This document shows, in pieces, positions 19,145-26,020 of a stretch of 32,763 nucleotides of DNA. The stretch comes from Clostridiales bacterium (lineage in GTDB: Bacteria; Bacillota; Clostridia; Christensenellales; UBA1750). Position numbers and translations under genes: made by a program. The notes beneath the pieces are model-generated. The model was not told the origin of the DNA. It saw nothing but the letters and a program-made list of their open reading frames with translations, and did no database searches. Numbering within the stretch: position 1 is the stretch's first letter; the number at the start of each line of letters is the position of its first letter. The stretch covers positions 1 through 32,763 of the forward strand of contig SVHB01000029.1 in NCBI GenBank assembly GCA_015056005.1, written 5' to 3'.

Positions 19145-21028
19145 ATGGCAGAAAACACCATTTTCTCAGGTGTCGTCTTTGAAAACGATAATTTCATTCT
19201 TGAAATAGGCTCAGACGGCTGCGCAAAAAGGCTTTTCCATAAGGCAGAAAAAAGGGAAATGCTTGAAAACACGCATACGCCCATGTTTTCTATTACTCAG
19301 GACAGGCTTTTCAACAACGAATTAAAGCTTGCCCACCCAAATAAGCGCTCGACCTTCTCTTCAAACTCGGTGGAATTTATAAACGACAGGCTCATAGTAT
19401 CCTTTGAGCTTCTGCAGTACAGGGCGGAAATAAAGGTGAGCGTCAAAGAACGCTATATCGCATTCGAGCTTGTTGATTTCATCGTGCCCGAGCATGCCTT
19501 TGGAGGGCTGAGGATGGACGTTCCCCCCGTTTCCTCCTTCCGCCTTGCTCAGCTGCCGATTATCGCTCTGCCCAATTTCGGTGAGTGGCTGAATGTCGCC
19601 TTTGACGAAAAAACAGCGGTAAACCTTATCGGAACGGATAAATCTTCCATCATCGACGCTCAAAAAGGCGTAGGCTGTGTGACCCTCACCGCCGACTGCG
19701 TGCGCGGTATAAAGCTCAAGGGCTGTTCCTGCGCGCTCATAGTTTCAAAAAAGGACGAGCTGTTAAATGCGATAGAGGATGTCGAAAACGATTTTGACCT
19801 CCCCAAGGGCGTTAAAAGCAGAAACGATAAACGGATAAATGCATCTGTTTACTGGACGAGCGATGCTACCCCCGAAAACATAGACGAGCATATAAAATAC
19901 GCCAAAATGGGCGGTTTTAGGCTCATGCTCATGTACTACACCTGCGCGGTCAAGGAAAGCACCAGGTATTATCACTGCGGCAATTACGACCTGAGGGACG
20001 AATACAAAAACGGCTATGATGACCTAAAAGCCATGCTCAAAAAGGTAAAAGACGCGGGGATCACCCCCGGCCTGCATTTTCTGCACACCCACATAGGCCT
20101 CAGGAGCCGCTATTGCACCCCCAAAGCCGATCACAGGCTGAACATCAAGGAGAAATTCACTCTTTCCGCTCCTTTGGGTAAAGACGATACCGTGATATAT
20201 GTCGAGGAGGACCCAAGCTTTGCGCCCATGCACAAGGACTGCCGCGTGCTCGTCTTTGACGGAGAAATGATCTCGTACGAAAACTATTCTTTAGAGCCGC
20301 CCTTCAGATTCATGGGCTGCAAAAGGGGCTGGAATGATACCGACATCGTTCCCCATCCTGCAGGCAGATGCGGCGGCGTGCTCGATATAAGCGAGTACGG
20401 CGCTTCCAGCGTTTATGTTGACCAGAACTCCACCCTGCAGGACGAGATCGCCGATAAGATCGCAAGGATATATAACTGCGGCTTTGAATTTGTCTATTTC
20501 GACGGCTCGGAGGGTACCAACGCTCCCTTTGAATACCATGTTCCTTCTGCGCAGTACAGGGTCTATAAAAAGCTTTCCCCCGCCCCGATCTTCTGCGAGG
20601 GCGCGGCAAAATCACATTTTTCATGGCATATGCTCAGCGGCGGCAACGCTTTTGATATCTTCCCTACTAATATCTTTAAGGAAATGATAATCAAATACCC
20701 CGCCGAGGAAGCGCCGAGGATGGCAAACGATTTCACAAGAGTCAATTTCGGCTGGTGGGCGTTCTTTGAAGATACCACGCCCGATGTATATGAGTACGGC
20801 ACGAGCAAGGCCTTTGCCTATAACTGCCCCGCAACCATGCAGGCACGCCTTGAAAGGTTTGAGAAAAACCCCAATACCAAAGCCGTGCTTGAGGTCATGC
20901 GCAGGTGGGAGTATGCCCGCCAAAACGATATATTAACCGATGATCAGAAGGAAGCGCTAAAAGACCCCAATAAGGAATTCACCCTTATCATAAACGAAAA
21001 CGGCGAATACGAGCTGAAAGAATGCTGA
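19145..21028 (+). CDS. Putative glycosidase-like (TIM-barrel) protein of unknown family
   Basis: 627 aa; beta-rich N-terminus, then SVYWTSDATPENIDEHIKYAKMGGFRLMLMYY...AGITPGLHFLHTHIG...FEFVYFDGSEG, reminiscent of clan-D-like glycoside hydrolase barrels. No family confidently recognised. Confidence 0.55.
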   Translation: MAENTIFSGVVFENDNFILEIGSDGCAKRLFHKAEKREMLENTHTPMFSITQDRLFNNELKLAHPNKRSTFSSNSVEFINDRLIVSFELLQYRAEIKVSVKERYIAFELVDFIVPEHAFGGLRMDVPPVSSFRLAQLPIIALPNFGEWLNVAFDEKTAVNLIGTDKSSIIDAQKGVGCVTLTADCVRGIKLKGCSCALIVSKKDELLNAIEDVENDFDLPKGVKSRNDKRINASVYWTSDATPENIDEHIKYAKMGGFRLMLMYYTCAVKESTRYYHCGNYDLRDEYKNGYDDLKAMLKKVKDAGITPGLHFLHTHIGLRSRYCTPKADHRLNIKEKFTLSAPLGKDDTVIYVEEDPSFAPMHKDCRVLVFDGEMISYENYSLEPPFRFMGCKRGWNDTDIVPHPAGRCGGVLDISEYGASSVYVDQNSTLQDEIADKIARIYNCGFEFVYFDGSEGTNAPFEYHVPSAQYRVYKKLSPAPIFCEGAAKSHFSWHMLSGGNAFDIFPTNIFKEMIIKYPAEEAPRMANDFTRVNFGWWAFFEDTTPDVYEYGTSKAFAYNCPATMQARLERFEKNPNTKAVLEVMRRWEYARQNDILTDDQKEALKDPNKEFTLIINENGEYELKEC

Positions 21029-21126
21029 AAAGCAAAAACTTTGTTTATGAACGATAAAGCTCAACACCGCTGTCAGGAACCCTTCCCGATTAATCCGATA
21101 TAAAAGAAAGAACCCTTCGCGTGAAG

Positions 21127-21168
21127 CAATGTCATTTAGTTTGTGCAAAACCTGTTAAGTTAAGGGGT
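21127..21168 (+). repeat. Left terminal inverted repeat of the island
   Basis: Matches the reverse complement of 24937-24980 with a few mismatches. Confidence 0.88.
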
Positions 21169-21291
21169 TAAGAAAAGAGTACTGCTAACTTTTTCACAAA
21201 GCGAGCGGTACTCTTTTAATAATAGACTACACCAAACTAAAAATTTTGTCTGTTCGATAACTTGTTGTTTATCGCACAAGTTCATATATAT

Positions 21292-22032
21292 TTATTCTTC
21301 AAAAATGTATGCTACACCATACTTCTCATAGCCAATAGATTCTGCCAAGGCGATTGATGCAGTGTTTTCTACATGGCACTCCCATTGTGGACAAATCCCA
21401 TTTTCTACTAAATGATGAGCTGCCAATGCAGCGGTAAGTTTAGCGTATCCTTTTCTGCGCTCGTTTTTTAATGTTACAATTCCGGTATGTTGAATTACAT
21501 CTTCCATATATGGCATATCTGGCGCATCACAAACAGATACCAATTTGCCATTCATAAAATATCCGGTGAAATATTCCTTTTCAACTTTCTCCTCAAAATA
21601 TTCCTGTAGCCACCCGGTTGGGTCAGCCGTTGGAGAAGTCAATCGGAAAAATTCTTCATACAAAGGGTAATCAGCTTTCTTCAGCACTTGTGCGTTCCCA
21701 TATTCCTGCACACATTCTTGTCTGAATTTCATTAACTGCATTTTTTTAATCTTAAAAGAAGTATCTACCGCCGTCAAAATATCGACAGTACTCACATCTT
21801 GCAACTTTTTGAAGAAGTCGTCATATTGCGGTGCATAAGATACAATGCACGCATCTTCTTTTACCAGTACATAAATTGAATATTTACAGCCGAAACCTCT
21901 AACCTCCTCATTTCGGGAATCAGAGCATACAAATGATATGCCGCTTACTGCTTCGGATAAATTTATCCCGCAAAAACAAGAGTAGAACTCATTGGTAATT
22001 TTATCAATTTCCCTTTCAGTCAACCTTGCCAT
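21292..22032 (-). CDS. GNAT-family N-acetyltransferase (island cargo)
   Basis: HTGIVTLKNERRKGYAKLTAALAAHHLVENGICPQWECHVENTASIALAESIGYEKYGVAYIF is a GNAT C-terminal half. Confidence 0.8.
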   Translation of the reverse strand: MARLTEREIDKITNEFYSCFCGINLSEAVSGISFVCSDSRNEEVRGFGCKYSIYVLVKEDACIVSYAPQYDDFFKKLQDVSTVDILTAVDTSFKIKKMQLMKFRQECVQEYGNAQVLKKADYPLYEEFFRLTSPTADPTGWLQEYFEEKVEKEYFTGYFMNGKLVSVCDAPDMPYMEDVIQHTGIVTLKNERRKGYAKLTAALAAHHLVENGICPQWECHVENTASIALAESIGYEKYGVAYIFEE

Positions 22033-22078
22033 CCTTATACCTCCATTTTGAAAAGTACATTTGTTAAGCCAATCGTAT

Positions 22079-22798
22079 TTATATCGTCACATAAAGCAAA
22101 CCTTCATTGAGAATCGGCAGTTCTCTTTGAATTTTACCTTCGAAGAATTGAGCTGCTCCACCAAAGGCATCACCATCACAGATGGAGTTGATATACAGAG
22201 TATTTTCGCAACATAGTTTCGCTTGCTCTGCGTATTCGAGCTCACTGCCATTTTCCCATTCTTCTTTTGTCCAGCACACATACACAGGCCACAAAAGAAG
22301 GTCTTCACCAAGAGCAAATCTTTCGGGGTAATCCCACAGATCGCCGCACAGACCAATTACACACTTCTTACCTTTATAGTCAAAGGCTTCGACTATCGAA
22401 CCTTCTTTATAGTGTTCATCCGTCTTTGAGTATTCTTTCCACCCCCTTGAAATACGGCGATAATTGTGAATGATTTTGCCGTCTGCAATCAGAGCACAGG
22501 AGGAATAGATACTATCTTCTTCAAGCTCATTATATCCAAACAAAACGTCAATGCCAATTTCTTTCGTCAATGCCTTTATTTGTGTAAACTCCTGCGAGGA
22601 AGTAGTCAATGCCATTTTTCTATCTTCTTCATACTGCCACGAGAGCGCATTGAAACTTTGAAGAAAGGATTCGCCAAAGCACACAAGATCTGCGCCGTTT
22701 GTTTTAGCTTCTCTCATATACCATTGCATCTGTGACAGATTATACTTTATATCTCGATCAACAATTCGTGCCGAGGCGAGAGCAATTTTCATAATCAT
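22079..22798 (-). CDS. Carbon-nitrogen (nitrilase-superfamily) hydrolase (island cargo)
   Basis: MKIALASARIVDRDIKYNLSQM...ADLVCFGESFLQ...IIHNYRRIS...KCVIGLCGDLWDYPERF: apparent nitrilase E and C motifs. Start chosen by the upstream GAGG. Confidence 0.82.
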   Translation of the reverse strand: MIMKIALASARIVDRDIKYNLSQMQWYMREAKTNGADLVCFGESFLQSFNALSWQYEEDRKMALTTSSQEFTQIKALTKEIGIDVLFGYNELEEDSIYSSCALIADGKIIHNYRRISRGWKEYSKTDEHYKEGSIVEAFDYKGKKCVIGLCGDLWDYPERFALGEDLLLWPVYVCWTKEEWENGSELEYAEQAKLCCENTLYINSICDGDAFGGAAQFFEGKIQRELPILNEGLLYVTI

Positions 22799-22856
22799 TT
22801 TATTCCTCACATTTCAAACTAAAAGTCAATCCATCGTGCCTCTGTCTTGTCGCTAA

Positions 22857-24128
22857 TTAAAGAATATAATCTGTGATACAATCATACCACTGAACGTAGA
22901 CCGTACCATTGACAATCAATCTATCGTTGTCAGGAAGCAGCTCGCTCCATTTCTTTTTATAATAATCAATAGCCCAATCATCTCTGTTGAATCTGCGCCA
23001 CAAAATAGTTTTTCCGTTCTTATCCAGAAACTGCTCGGATACCACACCACAGTTATAGGTTTCAATGTCCATCACACAAACGGTATCATAGCATTTCCCG
23101 CCGATTGTAACCTTGTATCTACCGACAATATCCAGCAGGAAATCTTTATTGACACTTGTAACGATAGTTCCATTTCTCTGTATATCGCCCTTGGGTGCCA
23201 GATTGGTTTCATTACCACAGTTATCTTCACCAAATCCCCAGTTCGACATGAAATCATCCCCATCCAAGAAGGTAATGTAATTACGAATATCCCCGTCATT
23301 TCTGAGCGTTGCAAGATAACGGCAGTGAGTATCAGTGAGTTGTGCAACAAACGTACGATTGATCCCTTCATACTTATCTGAATATGATGCTTCCCGGGCA
23401 GTCAGCTCCACACCTTCAATACCATGAACCTTTGCTTTACCTGTGACTTGCATATCATATACATGGTTACATTTGCGCGAAGGAATATAGTACATTCCCC
23501 AAGACAACTTTTCTCCTAATTTAGGAATCAGAAACCATCCCATGAGTTCTTCCCATTTCACTGCAAAGGTAGCCTCTGTACTCGGTTCAATTTTATATTC
23601 GGGCATAAATTCAGGTAACTTGTTCATAATGTATTCTCCTTTCGACATTTCGGTGCGATATGGATACTTATTTTTGAAGTTCTGTTTCGCTGTATGCAGT
23701 CTGCTTTTTACTGTTCCTATCGGAATATTCAGTTGTTTCGCAATTTCAGCCTGGGCCATCTCTTTCCAGAAGAAAAGATAGAGGATTTGTTTATCCTTAT
23801 CCCCCAGCAAACTCAAAGTTTCCTTTACAGTATTCGCCACGGAAACTCCGTGTCTGCCATATGACAGCTCTTTTTCAGTCAACTCTTCAATGGTAATTTC
23901 ATATTGAGTTGCTTTCTTACGGAAATAGTCATTACATTTGTTACGTGCAATACTGATGATCCATGCTTTGAATGCATCCTTATTCTTCAACTGAGCTAAC
24001 TTTTGGTAAGCCGTAAAGTATACCTCCTGCAGAACATCGTCAGCATCTGCTTTGGAACTGATCCGAAATCTCACAAATCGCTCTACAGATACTCTCTCCG
24101 CTTTCAGTAAGTTTTCAAACTCATCCAT
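22857..24128 (-). CDS. ECF-type sigma factor with ~260-aa C-terminal extension (island cargo)
   Basis: N-terminus has sigma region 2 (DADDVLQEVYFTAYQKLAQLKNKDAFKAWIISIARNKCNDYFRKK) and region 4 (LLGDKDKQILYLFFWKEMAQAEIAKQLNIPIGTVKSRLHTAKQNFKNKY). C-terminal domain not recognised. Confidence 0.88.
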   Translation of the reverse strand: MDEFENLLKAERVSVERFVRFRISSKADADDVLQEVYFTAYQKLAQLKNKDAFKAWIISIARNKCNDYFRKKATQYEITIEELTEKELSYGRHGVSVANTVKETLSLLGDKDKQILYLFFWKEMAQAEIAKQLNIPIGTVKSRLHTAKQNFKNKYPYRTEMSKGEYIMNKLPEFMPEYKIEPSTEATFAVKWEELMGWFLIPKLGEKLSWGMYYIPSRKCNHVYDMQVTGKAKVHGIEGVELTAREASYSDKYEGINRTFVAQLTDTHCRYLATLRNDGDIRNYITFLDGDDFMSNWGFGEDNCGNETNLAPKGDIQRNGTIVTSVNKDFLLDIVGRYKVTIGGKCYDTVCVMDIETYNCGVVSEQFLDKNGKTILWRRFNRDDWAIDYYKKKWSELLPDNDRLIVNGTVYVQWYDCITDYIL

Positions 24129-24177
24129 ACCGTCACCTCCTTTTCTCTAAATATGATTAAAACCGGTTTCACTTATA

Positions 24178-24205
24178 TAGACGGGCACATATATCGAAAG
24201 GTTCA
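24178..24205 (-). promoter_or_regulatory. Candidate ECF-type (autoregulatory) promoter of the sigma gene
   Basis: Minus strand: TGAACC (24200-24205), 16-nt spacer, CGTCTA (24178-24183), upstream of the 24128 start. Confidence 0.6.
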
Positions 24206-24343
24206 TTTCTCAAAATTATTTTACAAATTTTACAGATTATAATTAAAAATGCCGCCAACAATGCCACTGGCAGCATAATGGAGACATTTTCACTGCAAAA
24301 ATTGCGCCCCGAGCGCCTATTTAGGGGGCTTAACCGAGATTGC

Positions 24344-24715
24344 TTATTGGCATGATATCATTGACCAATTTAGATTCATAAGACCTCCACTGTAAGTAAA
24401 CAAATCCATTACATCATTACAATTTGCATTAAAATGTTCAAAAGCATCCTCGAAAACAGTCCAAGATAACTTGTTACGCTGCTGCACGAATGCGGATGCG
24501 GTAACATCAATACCGGCATCAGATAATTCCTTTTTCAGACTTCCACCCTGCATAGAGAGCAGAAGATTTACCATTGTTTCCATATTTAGAACACACTTGC
24601 GTGTAAATCCTGTATTGTTTGGATAATCTTTTCTGTAATCTGCAACCGCCTTTGCGATAGCTTCTTCAATTTGGTGCTTTAACACCTTTGGAGTTGTATT
24701 TACTATTTGCATCAT
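24344..24715 (-). pseudogene. Truncated IS4-like transposase N-terminus
   Basis: 123 aa; ...NMETMVNLLLSMQGGSLKKELSDAGIDVTASAFVQQRNKLSWTVFEDAFEHFN resembles the N-terminus of Clostridia IS4-type transposases; ends well short of a catalytic domain. Confidence 0.75.
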
Positions 24716-24760
24716 TAAGACCTCATTTCATTACAGTAGTTAATGATGTGTATAAAAAAA

Positions 24761-24801
24761 CAAGACGAAAACCCTACTATGTAGGGAATACCAGTCTTGT
24801 G
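24761..24801. other. Hairpin upstream of the transposase remnant
   Basis: ACAAGAC-gaaaa-CCCTAC-tat-GTAGGG-aatacca-GTCTTGT nested stems. Confidence 0.7.
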
Positions 24802-24936
24802 TGCGTAGTTTTCCTATTCTCTCTTTTCTCTCTAATCTAAAATATCTCTACTAAAAATCGGTTCTCTCTGTTTACTGTAAAGAAAATAATCGTTCTTAAT
24901 CTCTCAAAATGTTTTTAAGGGGCAAACCCGAAGATT

Positions 24937-24980
24937 TACCCCTTAACTTAACAAGATCTTGAACTAACTAAATGACATTG
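24937..24980 (-). repeat. Right terminal inverted repeat of the island
   Basis: Reverse complement aligns with 21127-21168. Confidence 0.88.
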
Positions 24981-25009
24981 TCGTGTGAAGGGTTCTTTTT
25001 TGCAGTTCG

Positions 25010-26020
25010 TTATTTGAGGAAGGTGCGGTAGTCTTCAAGGTTGCGCCTGAGCAGCGCGGGGGTGTTAAGACCATAGGGGCAGCGGGTCATGCATGCGCCG
25101 CAGTTTTTGCAGTCCTCGATCTTGTTCATCTTTTCCTGATTTGCGGGGGTGAGCCACTGCGCGGTGGGCGAGCGGCGCAGAAGCAGGCTCATGCGCGCGC
25201 AGTTGTTGATCTCGATGCCAGCGGGGCAGGGCATGCAATAGCCGCAGCCGCGGCAGAAATCGCCGGCAAGCTCGTCCTGATCGTGTGCTATAAGCGCCTT
25301 GATATCGTCGGTCATGGTCGGGGGATTTTCGTTGTAGGAAATGAACTCGTCCAGCTCGCTCTCCCTCTGGATTCCCCAGATGGGCAGGGTATTAAAAAAC
25401 TGCGCAAGGTAGGCGTAAGCGGCGTCGCTTCTTGTGATCAGACCGCCCGAGAGCGCCTTCATGCAGATGAAGCCAATGTTCTTTTCCTCGCAGAGCTTTA
25501 CAAGTGCCTCGTCCTTTTCGTCTGCAAGGTAGGAGAAGGGGAACTGCAAGGTGTCATAGAGCCCGGAATTTACGGCTTCTTCAGCCACGGGCAGGCGATG
25601 GTTGGTGATGCCGATAAAGCGGATCTTGCCCTGCTTTTTGGCTTCAACCATCGCATCATACAGGCCGCTTTCATCGCCGGGCTTGGGGCAGAAGGCGGGG
25701 TTGTGGAGCTGATAGATATCGATGTGATCGGTTTTGAGGTTTGTAAGGCTGGTCTCAAGGTCCTTCCAGAACTGATCGGCAGTCTTTGCCGCGGTCTTGG
25801 TGGCGATGATGATATTGTTCCTTACATCGGACAGGGCATGACCCAGCTTTATCTCGCTGTCGGAATAGGAGCGGGCGGTGTCGAAAAACTCGATGCCGTT
25901 ATCGTATGCTTTCCTTAAAAGGTATTTTGCTTCCTCAAGGCTTACCCTTTGTACCGGCAGAGCGCCGAAACCGTTGCGGTTTACAGTTATGCCGGTTCTG
26001 CCAAGCGTCATTCTTATCAT
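25010..26020 (-). CDS. Aldo/keto reductase with C-terminal 4Fe-4S ferredoxin-like domain
   Basis: MIRMTLGRTGITVNRNGFGALPVQR, DHIDIYQLHNP; CRGCGYCMPCPAGI and CKNCGACMTRCPYGL cysteine clusters. Confidence 0.93.
   Translation of the reverse strand: MIRMTLGRTGITVNRNGFGALPVQRVSLEEAKYLLRKAYDNGIEFFDTARSYSDSEIKLGHALSDVRNNIIIATKTAAKTADQFWKDLETSLTNLKTDHIDIYQLHNPAFCPKPGDESGLYDAMVEAKKQGKIRFIGITNHRLPVAEEAVNSGLYDTLQFPFSYLADEKDEALVKLCEEKNIGFICMKALSGGLITRSDAAYAYLAQFFNTLPIWGIQRESELDEFISYNENPPTMTDDIKALIAHDQDELAGDFCRGCGYCMPCPAGIEINNCARMSLLLRRSPTAQWLTPANQEKMNKIEDCKNCGACMTRCPYGLNTPALLRRNLEDYRTFLK

Follow-up and report, generated by a model that had tools for sequence, protein, structure and literature searches.

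The window analyzed here, a stretch of 32,763 nucleotides from a Clostridiales bacterium (contig SVHB01000029.1, here C52, of a genome that is 94% complete and assembled in 105 contigs), contains a 3854-bp island at positions 21127–24980 that carries three open genes. Our reading, to which we assign a probability of roughly 0.87, is that this island derives from an insertion sequence (IS) of the IS4 family (IS4 subgroup), carries passengers, is non-autonomous, and belongs to the mobile insertion cassette (MIC) kind, and that it was inserted as a unit in a terminator. This reading is carried by the ends of the island, the duplication flanking them, the terminator that is rebuilt when the island is removed, a transposase remnant, relatives with the same ends and other cargo, and the target preference of the group. 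An earlier annotation of this DNA (the original prediction) had placed at these positions an island with inverted-repeat ends and a 10-bp near-duplication that splits a terminator hairpin; the coordinates are right, and every detail that was checked proved correct.

Ends of the element and rebuilt insertion site

The features that define the element and its target are listed below.

21108–21120, plus strand: left half of the split host terminator, AGAACCCTTCGCG, complementary to 24986–24999; the rebuilt hairpin folds
21117–21126: left copy of the 10-bp target duplication, TCGCGTGAAG, 9/10 identical to 24981–24990
21127–21171, plus strand: distal inverted repeat (far from the transposase), from arm complementarity and shared end blocks
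21168–21222, minus strand: element-borne hairpin terminator beside the distal repeat, aligned and conserved in nine elements
24344–24715, minus strand: truncated IS4-type transposase open reading frame (ORF), 123 aa, homologous part 24404–24715, from comparison with intact relatives
24915–24946, minus strand: hairpin closed by a UUCG loop, conserved within the transposase-proximal end, with covariation in 16 elements
24936–24980, minus strand: transposase-proximal inverted repeat, from arm complementarity and shared end blocks
24981–24990: right copy of the target duplication, TCGTGTGAAG, one mismatch to the left copy
24986–25001, plus strand: right half of the split host terminator and T run, from complementarity to the left half and the rebuilt fold

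The two arms are 73% complementary in an ungapped comparison over 45 nt, and their outer 15 bp (CAATGTCATTTAGTT) are identical; this block does not occur elsewhere in the window, even with up to three mismatches allowed. In both ends, it is followed by a variable spacer and then by a common GTTAAGTTAAGGGG block. The same ends were not found elsewhere in the host genome. Both start with CAATG and agree with the terminal signature of the IS4 subgroup, -AATR--------WTW, the right end having T-T-A and the left one T-T-T at positions 14–16. The length of the duplication, 10 bp with one mismatch, lies within the 10–13 bp of this subgroup.

Deletion of the island together with one copy of the duplication yields AAAGAACCCTTCGCGTGAAGGGTTCTTTTTT, a strong intrinsic terminator with a perfect stem (GAACCCTTC-GCGT-GAAGGGTTC) followed by a T run. 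The rebuilt hairpin has fully complementary arms, a folding energy of −20.7 kcal/mol over 40 nt (rank p = 0.003 when compared with 600 windows drawn at random from the same contig), and a dyad that lies 1 bp off the center of the duplication. The terminator is located between two convergent host genes, one encoding a 627-aa protein (19145–21028; no Pfam or NCBIfam match) on the left and the other encoding an aldo/keto reductase (25010–26020, opposite strand) on the right. The GC content of the insert is 38.6%, compared with 50% in the flanks. Without the island, the contiguous junction between the two host genes would read AAAGAACCCTTCG(C/T)GTGAAGGGTTCTTTTTT. A DNA search with the flanks for this empty site in 60 relatives revealed no shared intergenic region; the aldo/keto reductase gene alone was matched, in relatives of the same family, at 64–69%.

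The transposase remnant reads inward from the right end, starting at 24715 on the minus strand. Its 103 homologous N-terminal residues (1–103) are 78% identical to those of an intact relative (locus L120), and the homology stops before the first catalytic aspartate, so that no catalytic residue is kept; the element therefore lacks the complete transposase of an autonomous IS4-family IS. No other copy, full or partial, was found in the host genome. Searches with the remnant in the 60 relatives returned only the remnant itself, and those in phages and viral contigs returned no match; the transposase had no match among PDB sequences. An intact transposase relative with the same end was found in a genome of the same class.

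Relatives with the same ends

A scan with the pattern CAATGTCATTTAGTTN{5,20}TTAAGTTAAG identified six viral contigs and 41 loci in species genomes, most of the latter labeled Lachnospiraceae. Since the pattern required exact ends, these numbers are minimum values that favor close relatives, and many of the loci come from metagenome assemblies in which contigs are short. The first 16 bases (one mismatch allowed) were present in 32 of 32 checked genomes, and a reversed control pattern was nearly absent. Six different complete elements carry an intact transposase of 438–442 aa, with passengers located between the transposase and the far repeat, and are flanked by exact 10-bp duplications, one of which can be read as 11 bp:

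L118, 3290 bp: intact transposase and a TraX-like protein
L119, 3690 bp: intact transposase, an SMI1/KNR4 protein and others
L120, 3930 bp: intact transposase and a 475-aa putative lipoprotein
L121, 3601 bp: intact transposase, a GNAT protein and a flavin mononucleotide (FMN) reductase
L122, 5246 bp: intact transposase, helix-turn-helix (HTH) and other genes
L123, 3962 bp: intact transposase, HTH and other genes

Transposase-free cassettes with these ends exist as well:

L084, 1159 bp: metallophosphatase
L072, 1502 bp: Rha-type phage gene

The duplication is exact over 10 bp in most relatives. Because the same ends bound such elements in many other genomes, the ends and the duplication in the window are not a product of chance. 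The best evidence that transposase-free cassettes of the group move as units comes from two further loci, L125 and L133, which carry the same ECF (extracytoplasmic function) sigma gene and neighbor in two different Lachnospiraceae assemblies. They are 95.7% identical, and their similarity stops at the repeats; the sites are unrelated, with different flanks and duplications (TTCAGGACGC in one case, GGTGTTACCC/GTTGTTACCC in the other).

The transposases of the group belong to Pfam DDE_Tnp_1, and the Y(2)R(3)E(6)K motif is present in all nine intact or near-intact relatives as well as in IS1675 and InsG. Based on the ends, the duplication length, and this motif, they fit the IS4 subgroup. With IS ends surrounding passenger genes and no functional transposase, the window element corresponds to what is called an MIC.

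These data also bear on the other parts of the original prediction. The truncated IS4-like transposase noted at the right end is confirmed by the intact relative, the proposed IS4-type duplication length by the relatives with the same ends, and the suggestion to look for these ends around other cargo was borne out by elements with different passengers. The idea that three genes had replaced the center of the IS holds insofar as the island is a passenger-carrying derivative, but the genes sit between the transposase and the far repeat, as in the intact relatives, and most of the transposase was lost besides. Two refinements can be added, namely that the location in a terminator is no accident but a preferred target of the group, and that the cargo comes from two sources.

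The hairpin in the transposase-proximal end has 13–14 pairs, with a UUCG loop in most members of the group. In the alignment, three pairs have changed on both sides and 98.6% of the cells pair; the presence of G–U pairs is a pointer that the hairpin acts as RNA of the transposase-sense strand. One may guess, by analogy with what is generally known of IS10 and IS50, that its role is to limit transposase expression from outside transcription.

Several further observations concern related ends. Phage-like gut contigs (L071, L074, L075, and L076) contain several single or tandem copies of a 39-bp end unit (CAATGTCATTTAGTTA...TTAAGTTAAG), partly beside HicB-like genes and mostly without a partner end or duplication. 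At L136 (418–530; G748:C36:62717–62829), 113 bp with both ends and an exact 10-bp duplication constitute a miniature inverted-repeat transposable element (MITE) of the same group. The element at L082 (2307–3748) has two ends of different subtypes, one like the distal end in the window and one like the phage type, with a near-duplication (CTGTCTCATGG / CTGTCTCATAG) outside them; these mixed ends hint that subgroups may exchange ends.

Passenger genes

The passengers and the sites near them are as follows.

21292–22032, minus strand: GNAT acetyltransferase, 246 aa (Pfam PF12746, PF00583; 80% aa identity to the homologue in genome G157)
22079–22792, minus strand: carbon–nitrogen hydrolase (nitrilase-like), 237 aa (Pfam PF00795; 75.5% aa identity to the G157 homologue)
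22857–24128, minus strand: ECF sigma factor, 423 aa, including about 255 aa of a C-terminal domain fused in frame (Pfam PF04542, PF08281)
24178–24204, minus strand: ECF-type promoter GAACC-N16-CGTCTA, 5′ of the sigma gene, conserved in three paralogues
24249–24276, minus strand: intrinsic-terminator-like hairpin between the transposase remnant and the sigma gene, 12 pairs followed by TTTTT

The start of the nitrilase gene was placed at ATG 22792, which matches the homologue, and not at GTG 22810. The C-terminal domain of the sigma fusion has no Pfam or PDB sequence match, and the same fusion occurs in two paralogues (L024, 4597–5868; L025, 4629–5978). An internal ATG with a good ribosome-binding site is located at the domain border of the fusion. 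None of the window genes gave a convincing PADLOC match as a defense gene.

The three genes lie on one strand with short gaps, and no terminator-like site was found between them on that strand. Hence, they probably form one operon ending at the element's own terminator near the distal repeat. The promoter motif has three matches genome-wide, two of which precede sigma paralogues; this suggests autoregulation, and the ECF sigma factor may regulate itself, perhaps mainly itself. Control of the captured nitrilase and GNAT genes by the sigma factor would be a further step that we infer from this arrangement.

The nitrilase–GNAT pair (21281–22792) is 76% identical over 1.5 kb to a locus without the ends (G157:C51), and the sigma gene with about 100 bp of upstream sequence (22857–24227) is 77% identical to G001:C21 and 70% identical to a paralogue on contig C60 of its own genome. 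As the two modules trace to separate sources, the cargo is a mosaic. The ratio of nonsynonymous to synonymous substitution (dN/dS) relative to homologues is 0.07–0.14 for the nitrilase–GNAT pair, values that reflect the gene families and not specifically time spent inside this element; for the sigma gene, synonymous sites are saturated.

Target preference of the group

Statistically, the evidence that terminators are the preferred target of the group is strong. At 24 of 47 loci, a run of at least five A residues is found 13–28 bp beyond the end, compared with 4.8% of random positions (p ~ 1e-19; one end was counted per locus, and the window was excluded). For 14 other elements, the reconstructed sites fold better than windows chosen at random (combined p = 1.6e-6), and, for the transposase-bearing type and IS1675, complementarity of the inner arms around the duplication center is higher than at random sites (z = 4.3). 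This dyad test replaced one in which arms were matched across sites in a fixed register with partners shuffled, where the excess was not significant; as it was thus chosen after a first look at the sites, insertions of Escherichia coli IS4 were used as a fresh set. Twelve IS4 copies represented nine distinct sites, four of which are terminators with the duplication centered on the apex (L149, L150/L157 in both orientations, L154, and L155), and the complementarity of the set was reached by 0 of 3000 random sets. At L150 and L157, IS4 sits in one and the same rraA–zapB terminator in both orientations in two E. coli strains, so that this terminator was hit at least twice. A 2008 survey (PMC2266710) remarks that, in some members of the IS4 subgroup, the target arms show a “spectacular” specificity, and part of the terminator preference may thus be known in another form. 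No paper on IS insertion into terminators with duplication was found in a search outside of which most subscription journals and all preprints lay.

It is conceivable that what the transposases require is a run of A and a run of T in fixed spacing, a combination that intrinsic terminators happen to offer, and that terminators as such are not recognized. No signal in the data is stronger than that of the A runs at their expected spacing, and two elements (L121 and L125) have both runs while the hairpin across the site is weak or absent; the lack of significant excess in the fixed-register test points the same way. This is countered by the inner-arm complementarity around the duplication center and by the dyad lying exactly at the center in the E. 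coli IS4 sites, and we regard such recognition by the runs alone as possible, if somewhat doubtful. For a broader reading, we see about an even chance. In it, the transposases of the IS4 subgroup, those of E. coli IS4 and of gut Clostridia alike, would perceive intrinsic terminators through the two-fold symmetry of the hairpin and would place their cuts symmetrically about its apex, which would give the elements a harmless intergenic home; in Lachnospiraceae, one branch would have become a vehicle that picks up varied passengers and spreads them among terminators.

Proposed history and alternative explanations

In the history that we propose, the ancestral element would have encoded a complete transposase, its passengers lying downstream of that gene. 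Cut-and-paste transposition from the two CAATG ends, with a 10-bp stagger, would have placed the element in the intrinsic terminator that separates the convergent host genes, close to symmetrically about the hairpin apex, so that the loop and the inner part of the stem were duplicated and the hairpin was split. The larger part of the transposase was lost before or after this insertion, the order of events being conjectural, and the window copy could then move only with transposase supplied in trans; movement of this kind is made plausible by L125 and L133. The ECF-type promoter would drive the sigma, nitrilase, and GNAT genes, with the transcript ending at the element's terminator.

Some points weigh against this account. 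No relative with the same two neighbor genes was found among the 60 searched, and hence there is no empty site for comparison. The mismatch in the duplication and the limited complementarity of the repeats mean that the insertion must be assumed to be old. Some relatives sit outside terminators, and a phage-like group (L080, L131, and L132), which was kept apart in the interpretation, has the same ends and no clear terminator target. Movement in trans and co-transcription are inferred. If the three genes had come by another route, such as homologous recombination or another mobile element, with an IS4-type element beside them, the island would never have moved as one unit. The nitrilase–GNAT pair and the sigma gene do occur elsewhere without these ends, and their combination was seen in one copy only; yet both ends are inverted repeats with the duplication outside them, the passengers are placed as in the six intact relatives, and a transposase-free cassette of the group (L125/L133) has moved as a unit. 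We therefore consider separate arrival very improbable.

Another question is whether the element is a dead relic, that is, an old insertion that is immobile even in trans and whose cargo is simply resident. This is compatible with our account of the nature of the island, from which it differs only on present mobility. The host genome has no full transposase and a single copy of the element, and the duplication and repeats have diverged; on the other side, the outer ends are perfect, all three passenger ORFs are open, and transposase-free relatives have moved. In our judgment, the relic could equally well be real or not.

Comparison with known systems

A passenger-carrying IS4-subgroup derivative adds a second branch of the IS4 family with passengers (IS4/IS1675), beyond IS231, and one frequent enough in gut Lachnospiraceae to be found with one pattern scan. 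Its ends are diagnostic and usable for annotating other cassettes, and preferential insertion in terminators, with a duplication left behind, would account for the harmless intergenic residence and indicate where to look. According to the 2008 survey (PMC2266710), the modular passenger aspect had by then been seen in the IS231 subgroup and in no other IS4-family subgroup. As described there and in the papers it cites, IS231 and MIC231 resemble the window group in having IS4-family ends around non-transposition genes, with or without a transposase, and duplications of about one helix turn. They differ in that their additional DNA separates the left repeat from the transposase and does not lie beyond the transposase 3′ end, and in having CAT-type and not CAATG-type ends. 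On both counts, the window element is not of the IS231/MIC231 type. At 3854 bp and with three open genes, it is not a MITE either.

The nearest named transposase found is that of IS1675 (IS4 family, lactococcal plasmids), with 36% aa identity. Its ends (CAATGTCATTAAGTTAAGG) hold the outer and inner blocks of the window ends as if fused, the spacer between the blocks being missing; the copy examined has a 10-bp duplication like the window group and, unlike the window element, no passenger. E. coli IS4 shares with the group the AATG ends, the YREK motif, and duplications (11–13 bp long) that are often centered on a terminator apex. Its transposase is 22% identical to that of intact relative L120, and it is a simple IS, passenger-free in the copies examined.

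IS1272 and TnSha1 (IS1182 family; PMC4923244, PMC5678879) likewise target hairpins, often terminators, and TnSha1 carries a passenger gene, as does the window element. However, they delete the target hairpin, leave no duplication, and use a transposase of another family, whereas in the window a duplication is present and both hairpin halves are kept. Finally, the transporter IS (tIS; PMC9330008), an IS derivative with passenger genes, fits the transposase-bearing relatives L118–L123, to which the window element, being without transposase, is the non-autonomous counterpart.

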